Assembly: GCA_015521465.1 (NCBI GenBank)
Contig: WAOD01000035.1
Coordinates: 1-32,522, forward strand
Reading direction: 5' to 3'
Source of the DNA: DHVE2 group archaeon
GTDB taxonomy: Archaea; Thermoplasmatota; Thermoplasmata; Thermoplasmatales; Aciduliprofundaceae
Length of the DNA stretch: 32,522 bases
Shown here piece after piece: positions 14,999-19,759 of this stretch. How positions within the stretch are numbered: position 1 is the first letter of the stretch; every line of letters begins with the position of its first letter. Both the position numbers and the translations under genes were made by a program. Under the pieces are notes generated by a model. It saw only the letters and a program-made list of their open reading frames with translations. It was not told where the DNA came from and ran no database searches.

Positions 14999-17900
14999 AT
15001 GAAGATGTATAAGAAAGAAGGTGGGAGAATACCGTTTGCTTACGTTTTTGCCATTATATTTGTTTTGCTTTTGATGTTGTCAGGGATATATGCATCAATA
15101 CTGGGATACCACGATGTAACCAACGTGAATAAATTTTATGAAGAATCTGACTGGAACCTGCGCAATATACAGGATATGGTAAGAGAAAAAGCGTACCACA
15201 TTGTTATGAATGTTATTCATAACATAACAGAGAAAGAAAATCCCAACATCTATATGATACAGTACTACACCTATAAAGAATTTTCAAATTACATCAACAA
15301 GACATTTCCCCTAATCACTCAGGATTACAAAGTCACCGTAGGTAATTATTCAATAAAGGTGGTAATGGATTACAAGAAAACCCGAGATTTTGTTAAAAAT
15401 TACAGACTTACATGGGTAAATCCATCATACAATATCAAAGTAATAGACAATTCCATAGAAGGAGGTGGCCATAGAAACCACACTCAGCTTCCAGTATATC
15501 CCTATGTTGTGGGATTTTTGAATTACACATATCGAGATTTGAGAACAGGATACTTAATCAAGAGGAGTATGGATTTTAACAGAATTATATACTCTCCATT
15601 ACCTCTTTTAAAATTCGTTTTTGATGAGTTTAACACATCAACCACTAACTTGGGAGACTTTGGAAGGCTTATCAGGTACATATTGACAACAGTCGCAGAA
15701 TACAGGACATTAGAAGGCTATGGAGCAGGGGGGTATAACGGAATAAATATTCCCGTGACGGATATTCTAACAAAGGAAGACGTGGAAAAAGCCGTGAATC
15801 TGGCTCTAATGCTGGAAAGCGTGAGGTTTTTCCACACATATGATAAAAGTGTGGCTGCAAGCATGGGGCTGGACAGGATTCTGAGCAAATACGCGAGAGA
15901 TGGAATCCTTGACGCTGCAGACGTTTATTTCCTGTGGAACAGGATGGACAATCATTTTTACGTGGGTAGAATTTTAGGTCAATCAATATACGGATATGCA
16001 GATCGCTTTGTGTATGCATACATGCGCCTGTTTTGGGGGAATCTGGCAAATCAATATTTTGCGGATCCAACATTAAAGGAGCCAGTGGTTAGCTGGAAGG
16101 ATATTAACGGCAAGTCAAGGGGGGATTCTTGGTGCCGTGAAATGGTACATATATACCTTGACAAATGGAGGCAATGGCTGGACATACCCAAATCACTTAA
16201 CTCATACACAGCTACCGCACATGTAAGCGTGCCATTTACAATCACAATTTTAATACCCGGTACCCCCCCTAAAATTATAATCCTGCACAAAACAGCATCT
16301 ATGGACTGGACGGTAAAAAGTGATGCAGTCCCAGATACTGTTGAACTTATATTGGCACCTAATAGAGAGTATTACACTCTTCACACCATTGCCGTGGCTA
16401 CGAGTACTAATTATGTGACTTCACACACATACGAATATAACTTAGTGAAGATATCTTTTGGAGGAGAACATAAAAACTATGGAAATGGTAAAGAATGGGA
16501 GAATGTACTACATTACGTTATGGATGCACTAACTCGCTCTATGAAAAGAAGATCAAATACCTGGGATGATACAAATAATAAGGGATTTGTAGATTATGCC
16601 GCATATGATGCTGCTCGCTTCATAGGTGATTCCAGCATAAACATTGGCGACGGAAATCCTAAAAATCAGGTTACTATAATAAACAATGGTTTTGATAGAA
16701 TGGTTAATGGATATCTTCAAAATGCTGCTGGAGAGTTCAATGGATTAATATATCTCAGAAAAGAAACATGGTGGGCAGATGGAGCATATAAAGATTACAA
16801 AGATTCTTCAGACCAGGACGCGTATATTTATTATCTTACAAAGGACACTGTTGATATGTGGTATCAAGCAATGAAAAACCTGTATGATGGAGGATATCCT
16901 GCTCACTCGGACTACGCAGGACCTTACGATTCTGATTCTGGTTCATTACCCAATGGATATCAGATAAGCACATGGCCACGTTCTTACGGCGGATATCCTT
17001 TCTACGGACGAAGTATGTACAACGGTTCGTTTAATTTTCATAGGGATCTAACAAGAGATGCATACCATGATATAATTGCAATAATGTGGGTGATGGCATG
17101 GGAAGAAGCTGCAAAATATGGTGGATTCCCATCCATATCATACGATGGCGAGCAGGTATGGGACACCGTGAAAGAGCAAACAAAAAATGCAAGGGTAAAT
17201 GTAGTTGGTAAAAACGGTTTAATTAAAGATTTAAACGCAGAATTCCCCGTGCAAGAATTCAACCAGGCATATCTTACACTAAAAAGTTACGGAGACCTCA
17301 GGTCGTATCTTGACAGGCATACAGACACAGGTGCGTACAAAGATAACTTCTACAAGTACATAAGATGGCGCATGGGATATATTATACTGGGTATTGCAGA
17401 ACCCCATAACGGGACGAGTGGGGGTGGAAATAACAGCGGCAATAATACAGGAAACACTACCACTAACGTTACTGGTGAAGGAATCGATGTCTCGCACTGG
17501 CAGGGAACAATAAACTGGAACGAAGTTGCTAAAGCAGGATATAAATTTGCCTTTGTGAAAGCCACTGACGGAACAAGTTACGTTGATCCAAATTTTGTAA
17601 CGAATATACAAAATGGAGCTTCTGCAGGATTAATGATGGGTGCTTATCACTTCGCACATCCTGACAGCGATTCTGCTATTGCAGAAGCGGACCATTTTGT
17701 GGATGTGATTAAGCCGTATATGGGCCAGATGCAACTGCCCCCTGCGCTTGACTTGGAAACTGGTTCATCCATGGGATGGAGTGCTATGAGTAAGTGGGTA
17801 AATGATTTTATGAACGAAGTACAATCAAAATTAGGCGTTACACCAATCATATACGTGAACGTAAATTATGCATCTCATTTAGATTCTTCAGTCACAAAGT

Positions 17901-19759
17901 GGCCATTATGGATAGCAGACTGGACATACAATCCGAATGCAACACCAAGAACGGGCGTGTGGAGCACATGGGCGTACTGGCAGTTTAGCGACAAGGGAAC
18001 GGTTCCAGGCATATCCGGTAGTAGTGTTGACTTAGATAAAGCAAATGGGGAGAAGCTTTACAGGTTAATGAGTTCGTATGCAAGGGGCTTTGGAACGAGT
18101 AATGATATACTAGATCAGATGAGTGACTGGTTATCCGAGTCCTTTGCTGTCCTTTACCAAAATATATACCTAAATGCTCACTATTCACAATTGCCTGTAT
18201 TTACAAGTGTATATCAGGGTCGCTACTACTTCTGGGACACTACGCCAGCATTTGCAGAAAAAACTGGAAGATTGAAAAACGAAACGATAGTGGTAAAGTG
18301 GTTCGAACCGAGTGTAAGTGCTTCTGTGAGCATTGGAAAAGGACACAGGTTTGTCGATGTACAGGATTTATCGTATAACATGGGAAGTGCACCATTTGAG
18401 TACCAGTTCAACGTCCAGCTTTCTGGAAACCTGAACATGAATTTAAGAACAGATAGAACCTCTTTAGTTTATGGAAATCATCACTGGTACACGTGGTACA
18501 ACGGTTCGGTGAAGTTTAATCTTAATCTAAAGATTCCGATATACACAGCCTGGTTTTTGGAATCGCACTGGAACAAGTGCACTCATGAGGACAATTGGGC
18601 ATTCCACACCGACGTACCGTTCAATTACACCAGAGGTTACTTTGGAGTGGACAACAAAGACACACATACAAACCCATTTTTCATAAGTGAACCTCTTAAT
18701 AGATTCATATACGATTACGAAGGGCTTAGTGAAATATGGAATCGATACTCTACTTTCTACCATTTTGAAGTTATCAATGCAAAGGATGAAGCTGCTGCCT
18801 GGAACTACACTTACAAAGACACGTTAACAAAAGCAACGGATGCCACTGCCAAGGCTATGGCAGATGCCTCATCCCTGTTTTCAAGGGTTTCTTCTGATCA
18901 AAGCACACTCATAAGCAAGGCAAGTAGTTATATGAGCTCATTGAACTTCTTCTATTTTGAGCGAGATTTCATCGTTACGTCAAATGCGGTTAAAGAAAAC
19001 AACGGATACCAAAGTTACAATGTTAATTTAGGAAATGCACAGGTGCAGGAGAAATATTCTGAAGGGCAATTTAACGCTCAGGGAACTATAAGCAGAAGCA
19101 ATATAGATATAACTGTTAACGAAAAATACGATAGGGCAACAGAAGAAATGACCATAAAAAATGGAGAGATAAGTTACAATATGGCTTCATATTATCGGGT
19201 TCACCATAGAGCAATTAAGTTACTGGTAGAAGCAGCACAAAACATATATAAGCTGGACTTTGGGTTTGTTGGAACGGGAAATGTGGCTTCCTTGGACAAG
19301 TACATAAGAGACATAACCAAGAGAAATGTTTATCAGGAAGATTTGGTACATATATTTCACAAAATGCTTAAAGACATATACCTCAACGAAACAATAAATT
19401 ACAAGTTTGGGATGTATGTAAATCTCCTGGGTGGCGGCGAGAATCTGACATATATTGTGTGGTTTGACAAAGCGCCAACCACGGACTCATTTATCATCTG
19501 GTTGAACAATGAGGTAAGATACATAATCTACAACCTTGGAATGTCTCAGTTTCCGCAGCATGGATACGACAGGTTAACCAGCGATAGCGTATATTACTCC
19601 ATCAGCAATCTCTGGATGAGCACAAACTATGAGGCGTCATCCATATTCGGGTACAGAGAAAGCGGGGATTTCAGGGGTGCTTCTAATGGCTATGAAATTA
19701 ACTGGAACTTCAATATAGAAGTACCAACTCCAGATACTGGGCATGGCCCGGCTCTATAA
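14999..19759 (+). CDS. Giant (1586-aa) membrane-anchored surface protein with embedded GH25 muramidase (lysozyme) domain
   Basis: N-terminal TM ([23 protein letters not shown]); N/T/G-rich linker [24 protein letters not shown]25 region [16 protein letters not shown]...[15 protein letters not shown]...GAYHFAHP...PPALDLETG...IIYVN...[27 protein letters not shown] at about codons 826-1020. Confidence 0.92.

Follow-up and report, generated by a model that had tools for sequence, protein, structure and literature searches.

A giant GH25-bearing protein of a DHVE2 group archaeon as a candidate tip subunit of a type IV pilus-like filament

Closest described systems

A recombinant GH25 lysozyme domain of the archaeon Aciduliprofundum boonei kills bacteria, and transcription of the lysozyme increases in co-culture with a bacterial competitor (PMC4241558); archaeal antagonism toward bacteria is otherwise poorly documented (PMC12352652). 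In this study, we analysed a contig of a DHVE2 group archaeon (assembly GCA_015521465.1, contig WAOD01000035.1, positions 1 to 32,522 of the forward strand; all 32,522 nucleotides are called the window below), which encodes a protein of 1586 amino acids (aa), here called the giant, that carries a bacterial-type GH25 domain in its interior and follows the genes of two small pilin-like proteins, pil160 and pil171. We favour, with a probability of roughly 0.55, the reading that the giant forms the large subunit at the tip of a type IV pilus-like filament in this archaeon, grafted with GH25 for killing or feeding.

An earlier sequence-only reading of this DNA had stated that an archaeal GH25 was known from A. 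boonei, which the literature confirms (Metcalf 2014, PMC4241558). That lysozyme (UniProt B5ID12) belongs to the same archaeal GH25 clade (DHVE2 group, 80/94) and has an intact active site, but it is a secreted protein of 574 aa composed of GH25, Amidase_6 and two SH3_3 domains, whereas the giant is about three times longer and has a pilin-type scaffold. Archaeal GH25 as such is therefore known, and the giant is, judging by its architecture, a different protein. Seven short proteins of 550-591 aa carry the full GH25, Amidase_6 and SH3_3 architecture, and the A. boonei-type short protein is present in four of four genomes of Aciduliprofundum proper (genus g5), in G010, and in G003 and G004, beside or instead of the giant. 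At one locus (L040), the start of a flanking gene resembles that of a macro-domain protein, which agrees with the App-1 neighbour reported for the A. boonei lysozyme (Metcalf et al., PMC4241558).

In Myxococcus, four interchangeable TadE/F/G-like tips of the Kil system drive contact-dependent killing (PMC12075869). The locus studied here resembles the Kil and Tad tips (Myxococcus xanthus KilL-KilM-KilN; PMC12075869, PMC8460266) in its trio of minor-pilin genes with a large and modular third member, in interchangeable paralogous tips (compare the two in genome G344, below), in a linked ATPase and platform and in the proposed contact-dependent killing, a likeness of gene organisation and proposed role. 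The Kil tips, however, are bacterial, diderm and secretin-bearing and have no recognised cell-wall hydrolase, whereas the window system would have GH25 on its tip. The modular minor pilins of type IV filaments (S. sanguinis PilB/PilC) share with the giant cut-and-paste domains and a tip cap lacking Glu5, but their grafts are adhesive (PMC10191384), whereas that of the giant is a predicted muramidase, archaeal, and internal to a scaffold of 1350 aa. A survey that required a cell-wall-binding domain in each protein reported peptidoglycan hydrolases in about 5% of archaeal genomes (Strock et al. 2025, PMC12352652). These modular enzymes likewise act on bacterial walls and show domain shuffling, but the suggestion made for their delivery was secretion or contractile injection and did not involve pili. 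Pfam detected no cell-wall-binding domain in the giant, nor Amidase_6 or SH3_3, and the method of that survey would therefore not list it. Within the open-licence PMC literature, we found no paper on a muramidase-bearing pilin.

The GH25 domain and its graft into a scaffold

GH25 is the sole Pfam family matched in the giant. The match to PF01183 (Glyco_hydro_25) spans residues 829-1005 and the whole profile (1-180 of 180), with 165 bits against a cut-off of 27 and E=2.8e-48. The GH25 family is known for muramidase activity, and the best match of the domain in the PDB is 1JFX (1,4-beta-N-acetylmuramidase M1, cellosyl; E=1.2e-35). Asp830, Asp918 and Glu920 of the giant align with D9, D98 and E100 of 1JFX, which are the catalytic residues of cellosyl, and the active-site positions are invariant across seven orthologous giants and across 14 archaeal GH25 domains. 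Between the window genome (G000) and G007, the ratio of nonsynonymous to synonymous substitution (dN/dS) is 0.025 for the GH25 region and 0.033-0.035 for its flanks; purifying selection on the domain is thus at least as strong as on the scaffold. A GH25 search of the assembly, a draft of 1.51 Mb in 108 contigs, gave no second GH25 besides that of the giant. All motifs from which the sequence-only reading had deduced a GH25 domain with intact catalytic residues are present, the Pfam check that it proposed returned a full-length match, and the N/T/G-rich linker that it placed ahead of the domain is real.

Three giants without GH25 (G344plain, G487 and G496) have no counterpart for window residues ~804-1008 and 1018-1043, and in GH25-less homologues the N- and C-flanks are directly joined. 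Because the linker, the GH25 domain and the short linker behind it are all missing from these giants, the alignments indicate that GH25 is inserted into a pre-existing scaffold protein. The earlier claim of an insertion is therefore borne out by natural empty sites. The flank lengths given with it were also about right (about 800 and 550 aa), but the description of the flanks as unrelated sequence was not, since both belong to a single scaffold, which runs without interruption in homologues.

A phylum-wide search for GH25 led to two genomes from another order (G344 and G341; loci L285 and L286), in which giants of 1603-1606 aa are the third gene of the same pilin-pilin-giant operon. Their relationship to the window extends over all three genes: 33% identity for pil160 (E=6e-23), 34% for pil171 (E=8e-22), and 30% (E=5e-98) and 24% (E=4.5e-30) for the N- and C-parts of the giant. 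In both genomes, the N-part runs directly into the C-part, and GH25, 66% identical to that of the window, stands at the C-terminus after a poly-proline linker. A second operon of G344 encodes a giant of 1374 aa that lacks GH25 and is 93.7% identical to the GH25-bearing one over residues 1-1372, which makes this genome a natural plus/minus pair of putative tip scaffolds with and without the enzyme.

Spread of the scaffold and history of the enzyme

Within the order, neither single-sequence nor within-genus profile searches returned a homologue of the flanks outside the genus, Aciduliprofundum proper thus lacking the scaffold, and the scaffold family was reached by a broader profile only after the phylum-wide GH25 search had revealed L285 and L286. 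This profile (A7), built with the G344 and G341 giants included, was searched against 400 sampled genomes of the class and matched 139 of them, in 49 of 104 genera, mostly in frames of 1300-2000 aa; many of the compared genomes are drafts. Thirty-four scaffold loci outside the genus (L326-L359) were inspected in full irrespective of GH25, and none has a GH25 domain according to the profile built in this analysis. PKD and Ig-like (Big_5) domains lie at residues 859-1285, between the N- and C-parts, in the giants of L346 and L347 (1932-2003 aa), and LTD domains lie near the C-terminus in those of L331 and L332; with these modules of other lineages, the internal junction and the C-terminus of the scaffold resemble a pair of docking sites. 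In the giants of L326, L327, L331, L332, L285 and L286, the first ~50 aa weakly match DUF7286 (PF23957; E 0.05 to 5.5e-6, below cut-off). The scaffold may thus be part of a broader family of giant pilin-like proteins in archaea, for which DUF7286 is a lead and not a membership. Immediately upstream of the pilin-pilin-GH25 giant operon, G002 and G006 encode another giant of ~1530-1590 aa that has LTD and Ig-like domains (L033:182-4777, + strand, and L034:7803-12575, − strand); the window holds no such gene at this place. A viral origin of the scaffold was considered and rejected: it has no relative in IMG/VR, and viral GH25 domains, at most 43% identical, are further off than archaeal ones. Rfam, tRNA and PADLOC scans returned nothing bearing on the giant; an ATPase of 453 aa (window 29869-31230, + strand) matches the PADLOC candidate defence family PDC-S27 (E=3.4e-49).

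In a first tree, all DHVE2 GH25 domains fell into one group (80/94). When the tail-type domains of G344 and G341 were added, the GH25 domains of the giants formed one clade (100/94) and those of the short type another (99/93), the former with the tandem GH25 domains from a kumamolisin-type protein in G002 as its sister group (98/94). The tail-type domains branch nearby, and a single clade of giants and tail types is weakly rejected (AU, approximately unbiased test, p=0.037). As to a bacterial donor, the tree does not resolve the DHVE2 clade among archaeal and several bacterial groups. The best reading of these data is one enzyme lineage that is shared among related archaea and was fused at least two times to the scaffold at different positions, the differing positions being a stronger argument for two grafting events than the AU result; relocation of GH25, or its transfer between scaffolds, could also account for the pattern. 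GH25 was seen in other fusions as well. The protein of G002 (contig C14; L037:2-3622, − strand) is a protease-muramidase fusion with a pro-kumamolisin domain (S53 peptidase activation domain) and GH25 twice in tandem; G324, of another Thermoplasmatota lineage, encodes a fusion of Zinc carboxypeptidase M14 and GH25 (L287:3841-6648, + strand); and a protein of Archaeon GW2011_AR15 (L103:7808-10591) has a C-terminal GH25 and an N-terminal half that by eye resembles a lytic transglycosylase.

Pilin-like operon, rival explanations and proposed function

The three genes form a tight operon in which pil171 overlaps pil160 and the giant comes third. Pil160 and pil171 have one N-terminal helix each, behind prepilin-like leaders (EEG-TSGFFEELVLFAVV; ERG-QSAVVDATLIAPIL). 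The only transmembrane (TM)-like segment of the giant is residues 16-34, behind a short charged leader. Such a prepilin-type N-terminus, a charged leader followed by a single hydrophobic helix, is conserved in 16 homologous scaffolds, and its motif G(R/K)(V/I/L)P(F/Y)A also occurs in scaffold homologues without GH25. Early in the helix, both small pilins have acidic residues; the giants have IPFAYV or VPFALV, none of them acidic. Minor-pilin tip complexes of type IV filaments end in a cap subunit without Glu5, and grafted domains can be present on them (PMC10191384); the absence of a Glu5-like acidic residue from the giant fits a tip cap, short of proof. Orthologues of the giant are found in seven of eight genomes of the genus, and the pilin-pilin-giant trio is kept in each of the six genus genomes whose flanks are complete and in another order; the order and sizes of its genes resemble TadE-F-G. 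The best reading of the protein is a giant minor pilin of the TadG-like kind, with a putative pilin fold. This agrees with two points of the sequence-only reading, the N-terminal anchor and the co-encoded pilin-like genes, which lie directly upstream and are conserved. The giant surface protein of that reading, by contrast, is more than a generic one: most likely it forms the large subunit (TadG/KilN-like) at the tip of an archaeal machine resembling a type IV pilus. As to a prepilin peptidase that would cleave the leader, a weak Peptidase_A24 match (E=2.8e-4, below cut-off) lies elsewhere in the genome.

About 7 kb from the giant operon, the window encodes a TadA-like ATPase and a membrane platform, whose synteny is preserved within the genus; the T2SSF matches of the platform (E=4.5e-5 in the genome search, E=0.0018 in Pfam) are both below cut-off. 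Orthologues of the ATPase at least 78% identical are present in eight of eight genus genomes, and the family's other genera contain paralogues alone, ~25-32% identical. In three genomes of another family (f7; G580, G576 and G374), ATPase homologues (E 1e-171 to 1e-178) are clustered with a giant, as are platform orthologues; pil160 and pil171 homologues belong to the same cluster in G576 and G374, where a gene similar to that of the 153-aa pilin of the window adjoins the giant. This joint clustering in another family ties the two predicted modules of the window together. Beside the ATPase gene lies that of an 821-aa tetratricopeptide repeat (TPR) protein (window 7212-9677, + strand), which is 84% identical in G007, also by the ATPase, and was not seen beside the ATPase in G001, G003, G004 and G006. 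A single-TM protein of 277 aa and unknown family (window 10084-10917, − strand) is present in G007 as two copies, arranged in tandem close to the ATPase (L090:8123-9919). The features of the window are collected in Table 1.

Table 1. Features of the giant locus and of the ATPase/platform module (window coordinates)
Feature	Position	Strand	Evidence
Pilin-like protein, 153 aa, adjoining platform gene	2142..2603	+	Conserved by platform in G001, G003, G004
T2SSF-like membrane platform, 661 aa, 8-10 TM segments	2618..4603	−	T2SSF matches; TM prediction
TadA-like secretion/pilus assembly ATPase, 816 aa	4607..7057	−	PF00437 E=5.8e-17; TIGR03819; genus orthologues
Small pilin-like protein pil160, 160 aa, MEEGTSGFFEELVLFAVVSILFVATL	14010..14492	+	One N-terminal TM; conserved neighbour
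TadE-like small pilin pil171, 171 aa, ERGQSAVVDATLIAPILVLILLMG	14483..14998	+	Pfam TadE E=0.16 (weak); conserved neighbour
Giant GH25-bearing minor-pilin-like protein, 1586 aa, ATG start	14999..19759	+	Open reading frame; genus orthologues; one TM-like segment
Prepilin-type N-terminus of giant, without acidic residue at Glu5-like position	14999..15106	+	Sequence; motif common to GH25-less scaffolds
N-terminal scaffold part, aa 1-799	14999..17395	+	Profile A7 matches 139/400 class genomes
Inserted segment, ~aa 804-1043, linker + GH25 + short linker	17408..18127	+	Alignment with G344plain, G487, G496 giants
GH25 muramidase domain, aa 828-1013	17480..18037	+	PF01183 E=2.8e-48; PDB 1JFX E=1.2e-35
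Catalytic-site Asp830	17486..17488	+	Pairs with cellosyl D9 in alignment; invariant
Asp918-Leu-Glu920, catalytic DxE pair	17750..17758	+	Pairs with cellosyl D98/E100 in alignment; invariant
C-terminal scaffold part, aa 1036-1586	18104..19756	+	Homologous to L285/L286/L326-L328 giants, N-part contiguous there

We infer a tip location for the giant, its use of the ATPase and platform of the window, and a role in killing. A prepilin peptidase would trim the leader, and pil160, pil171 and the giant would form a TadE/TadF/TadG-like spearhead; the TadA-like ATPase and the platform would extrude the filament with the trio at its leading end. The exposed GH25, which has the features of the enzyme, would then cut the bonds between N-acetylmuramic acid and N-acetylglucosamine (MurNAc-GlcNAc) in a touched bacterium and so kill it or set nutrients free, and the archaeon would gain space or peptides. 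To our knowledge, archaea have no murein, and therefore no immunity would be needed. Several observations weigh against this reading. The best NCBIfam model of the ATPase, TIGR03819 (TadA family; E=6.5e-37), scores 127.5 bits against a cut-off of 373, and the matches of Pfam TadE to pil171 (E=0.16) and to its homologues (0.08) are likewise below cut-off. AlphaFold2 (AF2) models of residues 1-826 and 390-1586, from a two-sequence alignment (window and L094), have pLDDT values of 29 and 27, too low to support a pilin fold. The tip position and the muramidase activity are, moreover, predictions from sequence. A split platform, two separate genes with one T2SSF each, serves as a criterion for Epd and Tad (PMC6668835); what we found in place of a TadB/TadC pair is a single protein of 661 aa with 8-10 TM segments. 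The machine may work like a Tad tip, but Tad membership is not claimed because its platform is one long protein.

The giant might instead be a membrane-anchored or shed surface enzyme outside any filament, its N-terminal helix a plain anchor and its small neighbours independent surface proteins. It has just one TM segment, at the N-terminus, its 1586 aa are an unusual size for a pilin, and no giant was found in G004, a genome 95% complete in which the ATPase and platform are present, this last point also telling against a filament tip. We nevertheless regard this explanation as unlikely, given that the trio with two pilin-like genes is conserved across orders, that ATPase and platform orthologues stand by the trio in family f7, and that the prepilin-like motif is common to all scaffolds. 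Somewhat less likely again is that GH25 chiefly binds the bacterial wall to hold the archaeon or its pilus there, with hydrolysis secondary: other scaffolds carry PKD/Ig modules, which are typical of adhesion, and adhesion is also a property of the Epd and Tad pili (PMC6668835), but invariant catalytic residues in all giants and strong purifying selection are what is expected of an enzyme.

The substrate of the giant's GH25 is a prediction from sequence, which leaves some room for a non-bacterial or self substrate, such as biofilm polysaccharide or the archaeon's own glycans. That GH25 is known as a muramidase and archaea are, as far as we know, without murein makes this improbable, as does the lysis of bacteria by the related domain of A. 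boonei (PMC4241558). A binning or assembly artefact that fused a bacterial GH25 with an archaeal gene might be suspected in a 108-contig draft; however, the same fusion occurs in seven independent genomes, 55-96% identical and with archaeal neighbours, and in a named DHVE2 group archaeon contig (L094), whose giant has a GH25 domain 76% identical to that of the window. Because synteny is conserved in six other genus genomes, a chimeric assembly is excluded for practical purposes.

The presence of the same scaffold in a distant relative, with a kindred GH25 at another spot, suggests a modular contact weapon against bacteria. More broadly, and with slightly less than even confidence, we propose a widespread archaeal pilus with interchangeable tip modules, whose tip was independently equipped with a bacterial cell-wall hydrolase in some lineages. 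The scaffolds constitute a large family, as yet without a name, of giant proteins resembling pilins, present in about one third of the sampled genomes of the Thermoplasmata class, that may serve as a modular display platform. If the tip reading is true, the window encodes an enzymatic device for contact-dependent killing or feeding, a spear with an enzyme as its point, and archaeal delivery of a lysozyme by contact would depend on a defined gene set and be neither free secretion nor contractile injection.

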